Source of the DNA: Bemisia tabaci
Lineage: Eukaryota; Arthropoda; Insecta; Hemiptera; Aleyrodidae
Assembly (NCBI RefSeq): GCF_918797505.1
Contig: NC_092794.1
Location: forward strand, 67,121,345 to 67,185,344
Length of the DNA: 64,000 nt
Reading direction: 5' to 3'
A program made the translations under genes and the position numbers. Shown here piece by piece: positions 1 to 41,542 of the stretch. Below the pieces are notes generated by a model, which was given only the letters and a program-made list of their open reading frames with translations, was not told the DNA's origin and did not search any database. Each line of letters begins with the position of its first letter. Position 1 is the stretch's first letter.

Positions 1-1499
1 CCAAAAATGATGCTGGTGCCCCCAATTCAAGATGGCGCCCAAAATGGCCGCCCCGGGGGTCAAAATTCCAAAATTTGAGAATATTGTCGAGTTTGGTATC
101 CATTTATATGTAATTTTGGTCGTAGAATTCATATCTGGTGTCAAAAAATAATTTCAACCCCTTAGGGTCCGTCAAATCCAAGATGGCGGCCAAAATTTCA
201 ACTTTAATGATAATTACCCAAGATGCACCTTTCACTGTCGAATGACGTGTCTTCATTTATGTTAATTAGGTCAGAAAACCTACAAGGGAGGTCTACAATG
301 CCACTGCACCCTATGGAGGGCCAGGGTTCACCCCCTCCTACCCCCAATATGGCCGCCGCGGAGGGCATAAATAGTGACATTCTCTCAGAACGTCATAGTA
401 GGTGTCCATTCCTATGTAATTTGAGGCGTATAAATTCCAAATTTCAAGTCATAAATCGCAAATGTGAGACTTGCAATGGCTTATACCCTATATGGGGCCA
501 GGGGAACCCCCTCAATCCCCTCTTCTTTCTAATATGGCTGCCATGGGGAGCATAAATAGTGAAATTCTCTCAGGACGTCATGTGAGGTGTCGATTCATAA
601 CATTGGGACCATATACGTTTTTAGATCCCAGAATTCGTCCGGAATTAAGAAAACACATAACTTCCAAGGGAAATTATGAACTTGATTTATCGACTTTTTT
701 CACCCTGAAATGTCCGCTATTCCAATATTCGCCCACATAGGAACAGTGAAATTCTCTCAAAGCGGCATAGTAGGTGTCGATTTGTTTTAAATCTGAGGCG
801 TGGATTTCGAATCACAAGTCAAAACATGTAAATATCCCATATATACGGCAACCGCTTTGGCCTACATTTTGGACTAAAAATGCTGCTTGGGTTCATTTTT
901 GTCGAAAGAGCTAGAAATGAATTGGTGATTTTAATGGTAATTGACAAATTTTACGCGTATTCTTTTTCTATGTACGCAAAGGACTCAGATGGGCGTCTGT
1001 TTTTTTCATTTTTAAAAATTCCCACAAAAATATAATTTTTTTGCCGACGAAGTATGTATCTGCATTCAGAGTTCCTATGTTATTGTTTATGAACGCACTC
1101 AGTTTAATTGCAATTAAAACAACTGGATAATTGAGTGCTTTTTGTAGCGCAGGGTTTCGTCTCCTAGTAGAAGCGACACCTACAGTTTCCTGCGTTATCT
1201 GCAACAAAACGCACGCTCCTGCTAGAAGAAAATCGATTACAAAAAGAACCATCTATTATCCAGTTATCTAATAATGAAAGAACCAGAAACCAATATGAAT
1301 CCTCTGTGTACATTTGAAAAAGAACACCGGTGAAATATGTCAATCACCATTAAATTATCCGATTCATTTCCAGCTCTTTCGACATAACTGAACCCATCCC
1401 AAGATGCATTCTTTATTCCAAGATGAAGGCCAGAGCGATTGCCATGCTTAAGTGTTTTTGTCACTTTGAGATATTGACGATTTCTGACTTAAAATTCGG

Positions 1500-2045
1500 A
1501 ATCTACGCCTCAACTTACATGAGAATCGACACCTCACATGCCGCTTTGAGAGAATTTCACTGCAACTATGTCCCCCCGGCGGCCGTTTTGAAGAGGGTAC
1601 GGGGCTACTCCTGGCCCCGCGTAGGGTGAAATGGCCTCAACCTACATGAGAATCGACACCTCACATGCCGCTTTGAGAGAATTTCACTGCAACTATGTCC
1701 CCCCGGCGGCCGTTTTGAAGAGGGTACGGGGTTGCTCCTGGCCCCCCGTAGGGGTAATGGCATTCCAGACCTCTAATTTGCGATTTCCGACTTGAAATTC
1801 CGAATCTACACCTCTATTTACATTAGAATCGACACCTCACATGCCGCTTTGAGAGAATTTCACTGCAACTATGCCCCCCCCCCCCCGGCGACCGTTTTGA
1901 AGAGGGTAGGGGGCTGCTCCTGGCCCCGCGTAGGGTGAAATGGCATTCCAGACCTCTAATTTGCGATTTTCAATTTGGAATTCGGAATATAAGCCTCTAC
2001 TTACATAAGAATCGACACCTCACATGACGTCCTGAGAGAATTTCA
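1500..2045. repeat. Tandem subrepeats in left arm of the giant palindrome
   Basis: The block GACACCTCACATG with TTTGAGAGAATTTCAC recurs at about 1530, 1657, 1828 and 2015 (spacing roughly 125-190 bp), interspersed with GC-rich GGCGGCCGTTTTGAAGAGGG segments. Confidence 0.8.
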
Positions 2046-2794
2046 CTATTTATGCCCCCCATGGCAGCCATATTAGAAAGAAGAGGGGATTGAGGGGGTT
2101 CCCCTGGCCCCATATAGGGTATAAGCCATTGCAAGTCTCACATTTGCGATTTATGACTTGAAATTTGGAATTTATACGCCTCAAATTACATAGGAATGGA
2201 CACCTACTATGACGTTCTGAGAGAATGTCACTATTTATGCCCTCCGCGGCGGCCATATTGGGGGTAGGAGGGGGTGAACCTTGGCCCTCCATAGGGTGCA
2301 GTGGCATTGTAGACCTCCCTTGTAGGTTTTCTGACCTAATTAACATAAATGAAGACACGTCATTCGACAGTGAAAGGAACCCCTTAGGGTCCGTCAAATC
2401 CAAGATGGCGGCCAAAATTTCAACTTTAATGATAATTACCCAAGATGCACCTTTCACTGTCGAATGACGTGTCTTCATTTATGTTAATTAGGTCAGAAAA
2501 CCTACAAGGGAGGTCTACAATGCCACTGCACCCTATGGAGGGCCAAGGTTCACCCCCTCCTACCCCCAATATGGCCGCCGCGGAGGGCATAAATAGTGAC
2601 ATTCTCTCAGAACGTCATAGTAGGTGTCCATTCCTATGTAATTTGAGGCGTATAAATTCCAAATTTCAAGTCATAAATCGCAAATGTGAGACTTGCAATG
2701 GCTTATACCCTATATGGGGCCAGGGGAACCCCCTCAATCCCCTCTTCTTTCTAATATGGCTGCCATGGGGGGCATAAATAGTGAAATTCTCTCA

Positions 2795-3345
2795 GGACGT
2801 CATGTGAGGTGTCGATTCTTATGTAAGTAGAGGCTTATATTCCGAATTCCAAATTGAAAATCGCAAATTAGAGGTCTGGAATGCCATTTCACCCTACGCG
2901 GGGCCAGGAGCAGCCCCTACCCTCTTCAAAACGGTCGCCGGGGGGGGGGGGCATAGTTGCAGTGAAATTCTCTCAAAGCGGCATGTGAGGTGTCGATTCT
3001 AATGTAAATAGAGGTGTAGATTCGGAATTTCAAGTCGGAAATCGCAAATTAGAGGTCTGGAATGCCATTACCCCTACGGGGGGCCAGGAGCAACCCCGTA
3101 CCCTCTTCAAAACGGCCGCCGGGGGGACATAGTTGCAGTGAAATTCTCTCAAAGCGGCATGTGAGGTGTCGATTCTCATGTAGGTTGAGGCCATTTCACC
3201 CTACGCGGGCCAGGAGTAGCCCCGTACCCTCTTCAAAACGGCCGCCGGGGGGACATAGTTGCAGTGAAATTCTCTCAAAGCGGCATGTGAGGTGTCGATT
3301 CTCATGTAAGTTGAGGCGTAGATTCCGAATTTTAAGTCAGAAATC
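2795..3345. repeat. Tandem subrepeats in right arm of the giant palindrome
   Basis: This is the mirror image of the left-arm array, with the same units in reverse complement and a G homopolymer (around 2940-2950) matching the C-run near 1867. Confidence 0.8.
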
Positions 3346-4610
3346 GTCAATATCTCAAAGTGACAAAAACACTTAAGCATGGCAATCGCTCTGGCCTTCA
3401 TCTTGGAATAAAGAATGCATCTTGGGATGGGTTCAGTTATGTCGAAAGAGCTGGAAATGAATCGGATAATTTAATGGTGATTGACATATTTCACCGGTGT
3501 TCTTTTTCAAATGTACACAGAGGATTCATATTGGTTTCTGGTTCTTTCATTATTAGATAACTGGATAATAGATGGTTCTTTTTGTAATCGATTTTCTTCT
3601 AGCAGGAGCGTGCGTTTTGTTGCAGATAACGCAGGAAACTGTAGGTGTCGCTTCTACTAGGAGACGAAACCCTGCGCTACAAAAAGCACTCAATTATCCA
3701 GTTGTTTTAATTGCAATTAAACTGAGTGCGTTCATAAACAATAACATAGGAACTCTGAATGCAGATACATACTTCGTCGGCAAAAAAATTATATTTTTGT
3801 GGGAATTTTTAAAAATGAAAAAACAGACGCCCATCTGAGTCCTTTGCGTACATAGAAAAAGAATACGCGTAAAATTTGTCAATTACCATTAAAATCACCA
3901 ATTCATTTCTAGCTCTTTCGACAAAAATGAACCCAAGCAGCATTTTTAGTCCAAAATGTAGGCCAAAGCGGTTGCCGTATATATGGGATATTTACATGTT
4001 TTGACTTGTGATTCGAAATCCACGCCTCAGATTTAAAACAAATCGACACCTACTATGCCGCTTTGAGAGAATTTCACTGTTCCTATGTGGGCGAATATTG
4101 GAATAGCGGACATTTCAGGGTGAAAAAAGTCGATAAATCAAGTTCATAATTTCCCTTGGAAGTTATGTGTTTTCTTAATTCCGGACGAATTCTGGGATCT
4201 AAAAACGTATATGGTCCCAATGTTATGAATCGACACCTCACATGACGTCCTGAGAGAATTTCACTATTTATGCTCCCCATGGCAGCCATATTAGAAAGAA
4301 GAGGGGATTGAGGGGGTTCCCCTGGCCCCATATAGGGTATAAGCCATTGCAAGTCTCACATTTGCGATTTATGACTTGAAATTTGGAATTTATACGCCTC
4401 AAATTACATAGGAATGGACACCTACTATGACGTTCTGAGAGAATGTCACTATTTATGCCCTCCGCGGCGGCCATATTGGGGGTAGGAGGGGGTGAACCCT
4501 GGCCCTCCATAGGGTGCAGTGGCATTGTAGACCTCCCTTGTAGGTTTTCTGACCTAATTAACATAAATGAAGACACGTCATTCGACAGTGAAAGGTGCAT
4601 CTTGGGTAAT

Positions 4611-22204: not shown

Positions 22205-22515
22205 GCGCCATTGGTTGGCAGAATAGAGTCGACGTTTTATGCCGGTGTATATGAGGGTGCTTTAAGAGGTAACCGTTTTATTGCGATGCCTTTAAGACGG
22301 TTAAGGATAAAGAGCTCTGATTTTGGTTGCAATCGGTGATAAAATCAAAGACACGCAGTTATACACGCATATACGAAAGTTCATTTCCCCTGAATAATGT
22401 TTCTGAGGATGAAATGGTGGCATCTTTCTTTGAGCTTTGTTTAGAAATTGCAAGAAAAAACCGCGAGTGCCGCGCAGTAGTTAGCGTTTTTGTTGATTTT
22501 TGGCTCCTTGGATTT

Positions 22516-22956
22516 ACATACATTCGAGGCGCTCTTCGACACCTAATCGCCATCCTTGCCTATCGATCCAGAGGTCATCTGGTAAATGGCATCTTGTGAT
22601 TTCATCTTGAATGCCACCTATCCAAGATTTTGCTGAACGCCCTCTACGTCTTCTCCCAGGAGGAACCCAATCTAGTGCCTTTTTAGGCAACCTATTATCT
22701 GCCATTCGTTGAACAAGACCATACCAGACAAGCTGTTTGGTCATAATTTCATGCACGATGTTCTGCTCGGCGTTCATGATCTCTCGGACTCTTTCGTTCC
22801 TTACGTGATCTCTCCTCGAGATTCCGGCTGATCTTCGCCAGAAATCCATCTCAGTTGCCTTAAGAATCTTTATGGTGCAATCTTTCATGGGCCACACTTC
22901 ACTGCCGTAGGTCAGAATGCTTTTGATTATTTTGATATAAATCATTCTCTTTTTTC
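22516..22956 (-). pseudogene. 5'-truncated RTE-like LINE, reverse transcriptase C-terminus
   Basis: The minus strand encodes about 143 residues with TYGSEVWPMK, ATEMDFWRRSAGISRRD, RNERVREIM, QLVWYGLVQRMADNRLPKKA, DWVPPGRRRRGR and DRQGWRLG. These are the C-terminal landmarks of RTE-type endonuclease-reverse transcriptases of arthropods. The copy starts inside the polymerase C-terminus and lacks the endonuclease and catalytic core. It is bounded by the 12-bp duplication CTCCTTGGATTT at 22504-22515 and 22957-22968. The 3' end is a short TGTATG repeat rather than poly(A), as is usual for RTE. Confidence 0.88.
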
Positions 22957-23300
22957 CTCCTTGGATTTCCGTTGTAAAAATGGACCGCGTTTAGCAAAAA
23001 GGAACCAAGCCACATCAGCTGTTGCCAAATTTAATTTGGAAATTTAATTTTTGACATGAAAACGGGCGTGAGGATTTTTTTGCAAACAGTGAATTTTCTG
23101 CGCAGTGCGAAGCAAATTCCTTAGAATTTTCAAAGTCATCCACACAGTCGTTTCTTGCAAAAAATTAAATTACCCAGTTAAATTTGGCACTAACTGGTGT
23201 GGTTTGGTTCCTTTCTGCTAAATGCTGTCCAAATAATACTTGAGGAGAATTCGGGGAACTTATAGGTCACTCAGGTTCATTCTGTTAAAAACCGTCCAAT

Positions 23301-27934: not shown

Positions 27935-28930
27935 TTTCGCCTAGAACCACGTTATTGCCGAATTTCCCTTCAGATTTACTCTTTAAATGTGAAACGAAAA
28001 AAATGGAGCTCTATAACTTTCTGCGAATTTCCAGAAGATTCTGAGGAATTTACCTACCTATGTATGTAAAGTCGCTTTATAACGCACTCTGGCGCTCTAC
28101 GACACCCAAACGCCACATATGCCTGTCTTCCCAGAGGTTCTCGGGCAACTGACACCGCAACATCTCTTCGTCAACGCCCTGCCGCCAACCCTTTACGGGA
28201 AGTCCCCGTCGCCTCTTCCCAGGTGGTACCCAATCCAAAAATTGTTTGGGCAACCTCTCCTCCGACATTCTTTGCACATGTCCATACCAGCATAACTGCC
28301 TGGACATGACGTCGTGCACGATATCTTTCTCAACCTTCATCACCTGGCGAATTCTCTCATTACGGACACGGTCCCGTCTCGAAATGCCGGCAGATCGCCG
28401 AACGGGGTGCTCTGGGATCAGAGCATCTCAAAGGCAAACAAGCACCGGATATATGACGCCATCGTTAAAAGTATCGTGCTCTATGGTAGTGAAGTGTGGC
28501 CTTTGACGAAAAGAACGCAAGAAATGTTGAGGGCAACTGAAATGGATTTACCTACCTACGCCCCAAATTTCAAATCGCAGAATGCTGAATAGTTTTCTGT
28601 AGGAAAAATAAAGCGCAAGATGATATTAGGCGATTTATAATGGAGTTACGCTGATTCATGGAGATTATCTGAAGGAGAAATTTCGCCTAGAACTACGTTA
28701 TTGCCGAATTTCCCTTCAGATTTACTCTTTAAATGTGAAACGAAAAAAAATTGAGCTCTATAACTTTCTGCGAATTTCCAGAAGATTCTGTGGAATTTAC
28801 CTACCTACGCCCAAAATTTCAAATCGCAGAATGCTGAATAGTTTTCTGTAGGAAAAATAAAGCGCAAGAGGATATTAGGCGATTTATAATGGAGTTACGC
28901 TGATTCATGGAGATTATCTGAAGGAGAAAC
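27935..28930. repeat. Tandem duplication of about 250 bp, one unit filled and one empty
   Basis: Unit 1 (27935-28680) is the same 250-bp sequence as unit 2 (28681-28930) except that unit 1 contains the LINE insertion and its duplicated target. Both start TTTCGCCTAGAAC and end GGAGAAA. Few base differences separate the two. Confidence 0.92.
28061..28545 (-). pseudogene. RTE-like LINE fragment with 5' inversion
   Basis: Minus strand 28398-28077 encodes RRSAGISRRDRVRNERIRQV then QLCWYGHVQRMSEERLPKQF and ending RQSAL. The adjoining plus strand 28410-28545 encodes the segment that precedes it in the parent element, KANKHRIYDAIVKSIVLYGS to RATEMD. Target duplication ATTTACCTACCTA (13 bp) at 28048-28060 and 28546-28558. 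The order, outer boundary at ATEMD and inner junction to RRSAG in the opposite orientation, is that of a twin-priming inversion. Confidence 0.88.
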
Positions 28931-39542: not shown

Positions 39543-41542
39543 CAGTGGCGTGTTGTTCTGTCATTTAAACCTATGATAAAGAATCGATTATTAAGGGGTT
39601 TGCTGCGGACACCCTGATTATCGATCCTTTTTCATAGGTTTAAATGGCATAGCAATCGATATATCGCAAAGCACGCCACACTAGGGTGCGTCAAAAAAAA
39701 TGAAAGTCTGAAATGTTCCGCTCCCCAGGCGGCAATCGATGACGTTTGGTAAAAAAACTTGTTTGCCAGAATTTGGGCCAATATCAACCATTTTAAATGG
39801 TGCCAAAGGTCAATTTTGTGATGAAATTATGATATTTTGGTTTAGACCTTGATTTCGCACAAAAAGCTCGATTTTACGCTGAAATCGTGCGTTTACGAGA
39901 AAAATGCCAAAGAACTCGACTTGTAGAGGATGAAATTTTACACTAGGAAGACGTCTTGTAACCGATAAAAATCAAATTGAACTAGAAAAACTCAACTCGG
40001 TATTTATTTTTTTGGTCCTCAGAATTTCCGAGGTCTTAGAAAGTAGAGGTGTAAAAGACTCATTTTTCACGAAAATAAGTCGAAAGAGGGTGTAAATGAA
40101 CTGTAGGTAAGTGTTGAGGATGCAAATGTCATCAGAACTTCCTCAGTTTCAAAAAACGTTCCAACTATTTTGCACAATCCTCCAAAAAGTGCACGGCTCG
40201 AGAAGCAGGATCGTGCTATAATAGTAAGGGGAAAGAGCGGTTTGACCGGGAAAAATTGCGTAACAAACTTTCCCAATGTAATCGTCATCAGTAGGTCCCC
40301 CTGAACAACTTCCTAAAAGTTAAAAATGGCCCGACCCCGGAATACCCCTCAAAAAAGTTAAAATTGAAAATGGCGGCCGTAATAAGAGGGTCCGGGAAAT
40401 CGGTATTTTAAAATGCTCATTCTGTCTCATCATGTGAGGTATCATTTCCTATGTAATTTTGGTCGCAGATTTCATAAATGAATTCCGCACGGCCCCTTCT
40501 AAGCTTACATTTCTCTCGGTAGTCGTATGTTTCCTTTATTTTTCTTTATTAAATACATTTATAACATCAAATTTAAGTTTCTCGGCCATAAATACATGAA
40601 AATAAAGACAATTCACTTTCCTTGTTCCTTCGGTGAATATTTAAAAAAAAATGCAACCTCCTGCCTTTCACATTTGGCCGCCACCTTTGATTTAGAGCGC
40701 CCCCTTTGGCCGGAGGGCCTTGTGGAATTCATTTATGAAATCTGCGACCAAAATTACATAGGAAATGATACCTCACATGATGAGACAGAATGAGCATTTT
40801 AAAATACCGATTTCCCGGACCCTCTTATTACGGCCGCCATTTTCAATTTTAACTTTTTTGAGGGGTATTCCGGGGTCGGGCCATTTTTAACTTTTAGGAA
40901 GTTGTTCAGGGGGACCTACTGATGACGATTACATTGGGAAAGTTTGTTACGCAATTTTTCCCGGTCAAACCGCTCTTTCCCCTTACTATTATAGCACGAT
41001 CCTGCTTCTCGAGCCGTGCACTTTTTGGAGGATTGTGCAAAATAGTTGGAACGTTTTTTGAAACTGAGGAAGTTCTGATGACATTTGCATCCTCAACACT
41101 TACCTACAGTTCATTTACACCCTTTTTCGACTTATTTTCGTGAAAAATGAGTCTTTTACACCTCTACTTTCTAAGACCTCGGAAATTCTGAGGACCAAAA
41201 AAATAAATACCGAGTTGAGTTTTTCTAGTTCAATTTGATTTTTATCGGTTACAAGACGTCTTCCTAGTGTAAAATTTCATCCTCTACAAGTCGAGTTCTT
41301 TGGCATTTTTCTCGTAAACGCACGATTTCAGCGTAAAATCGAGTTTTTTGTGCGAAATCGAGGTCTAAACCAAAATATCATAATGTCATTACAAAATTGA
41401 CCTTTGGCACCATTTAAAATGGTTGATATTGGCCCAAATTTTGGCAAACATGTTTTTTTACCAAACGTCATCGATTGCCGCCTGGGGAGCGGAACATTTC
41501 AGACTTTCATTTTTTTTGACGCACCCTAACGCCACACCACTG
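39543..41542. mobile_element. Palindromic hAT-like MITE, copy C, split by a foldback element
   Basis: The left part 39543-39681 starts CAGTGGCGTG; the right terminus ACCACTG lies at 41536-41542, after the insertion at 39682-41528 and its 9-bp duplication. The outer flanks AATGCATC and AATTCGTC agree at 6 of 8 positions, consistent with an old insertion. Confidence 0.8.
39682..41528. mobile_element. Complete foldback element, 0.8-kb arms, 9-bp duplication
   Basis: It starts TAGGGTGCGTCAAAAAAA and ends TTTTTTTGACGCACCCTA; the arms 39682-40485 and 40726-41528 are near-perfect inverse copies around a 240-bp loop. The flanking 9-bp direct repeat ACGCCACAC is perfect. Long inverted arms plus a 9-bp duplication are typical of Mutator-like foldback elements; the assignment is inference since no transposase is present. 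The identical 73-codon frames in the two arms are repeat artefacts. Confidence 0.92.

Follow-up and report, generated by a model that had tools for sequence, protein, structure and literature searches.

An RTE-like LINE insertion with an inverted 5′ part in Bemisia tabaci, probably made by twin priming beside an unbroken tandem copy of its target

A split host unit and its unbroken tandem copy

The window (the whole stretch of 64,000 nucleotides of Bemisia tabaci analyzed here, C2:67121345-67185344, from a searched genome of 610 Mb in 151 contigs) contains at 27935-28929 a host unit of 249 bp in tandem duplicate. Unit A (27935-28047 plus 28546-28680) is split by an insert of 485 bp at 28061-28545, and unit B (28681-28929, + strand) is intact. 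With the flanks of the insert joined, unit A was 97.6% identical to unit B over 249 alignment columns (5 mismatches and 1 gap), in agreement with the tandem relationship put forward in the original prediction; the left part of unit A, which is host DNA and reaches the target (27935-28047, +), matches 28681-28794 of unit B. A 13-bp target-site duplication (TSD), ATTTACCTACCTA, encloses the two oppositely oriented segments of the insert, one copy adjoining the element 3′ end (28048-28060, +) and the other adjoining the inverted end (28546-28558, +), followed by the right part of unit A, again host DNA (28559-28680, +). The predicted 485-bp fragment, part inverted and part in sense and flanked by a 13-bp duplication, was therefore confirmed at the base-pair level. 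Since the first bases of the TSD (TA in element sense) are equally compatible with the element 3′ tail, its length is 11-13 bp.

The same target is present once and unbroken in unit B (28795-28807, +). A genome search with unit B gave five candidates, all of which were scored: unit B itself, unit A in its two halves, and three ca. 95-bp fragments at 74 to 75% identity, with no further close copy among them. Therefore, together with the match between units A and B, the empty site described in the original prediction is real, but it is a paralogous tandem copy and not a pre-insertion allele.

Elsewhere in the window, we observed a near-perfect palindrome of 4.4 kb (213-4610, matching its reverse complement at 98.9%, with short tandem arrays inside) and a foldback-element-like inverted repeat (39682-40495 and 40715-41528) whose 814-bp arms are 98.9% identical and flank a spacer of 219 bp.

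The parent LINE family

A real copy, L014, and not a consensus, served as the reference (q1-3166). It has a single intact ORF of 984 aa with the Pfam domains Exo_endo_phos (aa 33-264) and RVT_1 (aa 554-801), and only 8 nt separate the stop codon from the (TA)n tail. The RTE clade is defined by a single ORF with an APE-type endonuclease and a reverse transcriptase (RT), no ORF1, and a length of ca. 3.2 kb. L014 has this organization throughout (one ORF, APE-type endonuclease plus RT, no ORF1, ca. 3.2 kb), so that the architecture of this 3.2-kb LINE fits the RTE clade, and we call the family “RTE-like.” Protein searches returned best hits without names (one at 98%), the named hits being uncharacterized proteins of B. 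tabaci and Coccinella septempunctata, and the best solved relatives were human L1 ORF2p chains, which does not favor RTE specifically. No Rfam family reached the gathering threshold, and Pfam gave only sub-cutoff hits on the window fragments. The window fragment begins at ca. aa 825 of 984, downstream of the Pfam RT domain, which corrects the RT label of the original prediction.

A 34-letter pattern from near the 3′ end occurred at 417 places in the genome at ≤2 mismatches and, read backwards, at none. Aligned pieces across the family were mostly 97 to 99% alike. Thirty-nine other genome places matched the sense 3′ part of this insert at 97 to 99%, so its resemblance to the family is not due to chance; these 39 copies were taken at ca. 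6 kb each. In one of them, L039, q2-724 at the 5′ end continues directly in sense at q1790, which is an internal deletion and not an inversion. A fragment of a related but distinct LINE lies in the window at 22514-22990 (-). At the protein level it is 61% identical to one part of the insert and 54% to the other, and it runs continuously through the stretch ATEMDFWRRSAG.

Junctions of the window insertion

The 3′ part of the insert (28061-28400) is in sense on the - strand and runs from q2835 to the 3′ end, including the C-terminal part of the ORF, the stop codon, a very short 3′ UTR and a TA-type tail. The inverted 5′ part (28400-28545, +) corresponds to q2681-2826, or to q2681-2830 when the ATTT at q2827-2830 that the element shares with the target is included (28546-28549, +), and its alignment extends to q2678 via a mismatch. 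These 4 nt, AAAT at the target end, constitute the putative internal priming site, and the two segments have a single base in common at the inner junction (28400). Breakpoints contiguous in the parent had been predicted, which is nearly the case: q2831-2834 is absent between the segments, a loss of 4 nt that grows to 8 when the shared ATTT is assigned to the target.

Across q2678-2835, 36 of the 39 other 6-kb copies were continuous in sense, so the two segments are not far apart in the parent; the remaining three were inverted (L012) or truncated (L025 and L043) there. A 34-mer spanning the window inversion junction occurred only once in the genome at ≤3 mismatches. Because this junction is unique, the window inversion is an event independent of the other copies and not a rearranged source passed on by descent.

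Survey of inverted copies

The survey combined the 39 copies with the exact 3′ ends listed, 100 of 417 (in genome order, from C1 to part of C5), and with the exact matches to a 34-mer at q2704, for which 100 of 190 places were listed, covering the same stretch. Among the 100 listed 3′ ends, the q2704 34-mer was found in sense at the expected distance in 58 and was lacking in 42; within 5 kb, none of the 100 had it in reverse orientation. Forty of the 42 copies lacking it were taken as 635-bp stretches and the other two (L040 and L043) were already among the 6-kb copies, giving an examined set of 80 (39 copies, the window and 40). Seven of the 80 (L055, L061, L063, L064, L065, L074, and L086) could not be classified, their 5′ ends lying beyond the stretch. 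The 73 classified copies comprised 53 truncated, 15 full-length and 5 inverted ones (ca. 7%), a rate that is approximate because the 39 copies were picked by similarity to the window. If only the listed 3′ ends are considered, 69 of the 100 were examined (7 with the 5′ end outside) and 3 were inverted (L021, L059, and L072), two of these belonging to the 42 without the q2704 34-mer; inversions further upstream would escape such a count, since 31 of the 58 sense copies lay outside the examined set.

As for individual scores, L020 was counted as truncated, though it is a full-length copy split by ca. 2 kb, and L039 as full-length, though it is internally deleted. L022 and L023 are a full-length copy with identical flanks on two small contigs (C18 and C15) and are probably one locus, represented by alleles or by a repeated assembly stretch.

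The geometry foreseen for the window insert recurred in four further, independent cases in the family, with different breakpoints. In L012, q2503-2823 is inverted and the sense part starts at q2822 (gap of -2 nt, TSD of 14 bp, microhomology of 4 nt); the corresponding values are q2038-2415 and q2420 for L021 (gap of 4 nt, TSD of 12 bp, microhomology of 3 nt plus a terminal G.T mismatch, scored as 4 in the computed class comparison), q1741-2018 and q3026 for L059 (gap of 1007 nt, TSD of 10 bp, microhomology of 2 nt), and q2816-2989 and q2990 for L072 (gap of 0 nt, TSD of 14 bp, microhomology of 3 nt). In the window copy, the gap is 4 nt, the TSD 13 bp and the microhomology 4 nt. All five inversion junctions differ, and in each of the five copies the inverted part derives from parental sequence upstream of that giving the sense part (the two overlap by 2 nt in L012), the outer edge of the inverted part marks the putative internal priming site, and the TSD is 10 to 14 bp long, possibly including a few tail-like bases. 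The internal breakpoints are ≤4 nt apart in four of the five. Two junctions carry filler, of 8 to 11 nt repeating AGCTTCT in L012 and of 17 nt repeating AAATCCATT of the adjoining inverted part in L072; this copying of neighboring sequence suggests slippage or templated end joining.

Breakpoints of inverted and other copies fell repeatedly in two candidate hot spots, q2816-2835 (the window copy, L012, L072, and the truncated L070 and L066) and q3026-3029 (L059, L068, L071, and L057).

Microhomology and TSD lengths

The microhomology predicted between the target ATTT and the element is real, and each of the five inverted copies has 2 to 4 nt of it at the junction between target and inverted part. 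With targets and positions drawn at random, the null mean was 0.68 per junction, and a total of at least 16 had a simulated probability of 4e-5. The comparison among classes covers part of the copies, since many have no exact TSD of ≥8 bp: such a TSD was available for 30 of 53 truncated, 10 of 15 full-length (both L022 and L023 included) and all 5 inverted copies, and an exact match of that length was not found in 23 of the truncated and 5 of the full-length ones. Within this set, microhomology of ≥1 nt increased from full-length (0/10) through truncated (14/30) to inverted copies (5/5). The difference had a P value of 0.007 between truncated and full-length copies and was borderline between inverted and truncated ones (Fisher P = 0.049); at ≥2 nt, inverted copies (5/5) differed from truncated copies (9/30; Fisher P = 0.006, Mann-Whitney P = 0.0055). 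Median TSD lengths among the copies with a TSD of ≥8 bp were 11.5 (truncated), 13 (inverted), and 14.5 bp (full-length). Predicted RNA accessibility showed no trend at the five priming sites, which were not more single stranded than average (mean percentile, 0.47).

Twin priming and rival explanations

With segment order, TSD, shared bases, breakpoints, the unique junction and four more cases in the family observed directly, the window insert is very probably a 5′-inverted LINE insertion made by twin priming, as originally predicted. From these scars we infer the mechanism and, with it, the sequence of steps, the use of one RNA as template and the way in which repair took place. The element endonuclease would nick one target strand, whose 3′ end primes first-strand cDNA from the 3′ tail of the RNA. 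A second nick 11 to 13 bp away would expose the 3′ end ...GGTAAAT, which could pair with an internal AUUU of that same RNA (q2827-2830) and prime a second cDNA that runs toward the RNA 5′ end and stops at q2681, while the first cDNA would halt at q2835, just before the second primer. Repair would then join the two cDNA ends, via 1 nt of homology in the window copy and, across the inverted copies, with 0 to 1 shared nt or with templated filler, in the manner of alternative end joining. The gap of L059 would fit an early stop of the first cDNA. Against the twin priming reading stand the low number of cases (n = 5), this same gap of 1007 nt in L059, the merely borderline difference between inverted and truncated copies at ≥1 nt, the priming sites showing no accessibility trend, the near restriction of 5′ inversion in cell culture to L1 in human cells (PMC4245944) and the coverage of the survey, 80 copies with the microhomology comparison on part of them.

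Ordinary DNA breakage could also have inverted, at some later time, the 5′ part of a normal 5′-truncated insertion, since small inversions arise in any genome and the sequence alone gives no timing. However, one breakpoint would have had to hit the border between TSD and element exactly in all five copies, and microhomology between target and element in 5/5 would be unexpected, so we regard such a history as highly unlikely. Dual priming, in which the two target ends copy two different RNAs of the same family, has been put forward for L1 (PMC2837659), and both window segments are ca. 99% identical to the reference copy (99.3 and 98.8%), so that one and two RNAs are indistinguishable by identity. 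Breakpoints within 4 nt in four of the five copies, in contrast, are expected from one shared template and not from two independent ones, which leaves dual priming a small probability.

An inherited, rearranged source element spreading in inverted form, the main alternative named in the original prediction, is next to negligible: the inversion is not shared by many copies, the junction 34-mer occurring just once at ≤3 mismatches, and the breakpoints differ in the four further inverted copies. Nothing was found in favor of two separate insertions in opposite orientation or of an assembly artifact, and either is most improbable. A single TSD pair encloses both parts, and the absence of another between them argues against two insertions. 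In addition, the inverted part lacks a 3′ end and a tail, and structures of this kind exist at four other loci.

Returning to twin priming, it is conceivable, if on balance doubtful, that the process is template coupled in this family, that is, that the second primer anneals immediately in front of the advancing first RT and the RT stops at that point, so that the breakpoints coincide within ca. 4 nt (4/5 copies). If this were general, twin priming would be a by-product of integration conserved among APE-type LINEs with a TSD overhang of ca. 10 nt or more and not a specialty of L1, and clade and host would set its rate.

Comparison with known LINEs and significance

Among human and chimpanzee L1 insertions, 639 of 2,068 (30.9%) were inverted according to PMC2912911, and the order of human L1 microhomology given there was full-length < truncated < inverted. 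The present family resembles L1 in its TSDs, in the inverted 5′ part, in the segment order and in that inverted copies most often show microhomology at their 5′ junction (PMC2912911), and differs in host and element and in the rate of inversion (5/73, compared with 30.9% in L1).

In the cell culture work of PMC4245944, all 5′ inversions came from L1 in human cells except for one Nimb-2_DR insert in chicken DT40 cells. Nimb-2_DR, the sole non-L1 5′ inversion named there, is another LINE and concerns a cell culture event, whereas the copies analyzed here are natural genomic ones. Like RTE-clade LINEs, the family has one ORF with endonuclease and RT, a length of 3.2 kb, and a very short 3′ end with TA repeats. 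The RTE TSD peak, quoted in PMC4245944 as 10 to 12 bp, compares with the medians of 11.5, 13, and 14.5 bp found here. For U6 pseudogenes from L2 and RTE LINEs, PMC4476161 describes template-switch chimeras only.

The published accounts of 5′ inversion that we found concern chiefly mammalian L1, and among the open-access papers listed in our searches, judged by title and the start of the abstract, none dealt with twin priming in an invertebrate RTE element. The mechanism is already known; the non-L1, RTE-like element, at ca. 7%, and the host widen its range. Near-identical copies and five base-exact inversions, one of them beside an intact twin of its target, make the mechanism testable outside mammals, and the family supplies a rate, TSD lengths and a microhomology profile for comparison with L1.
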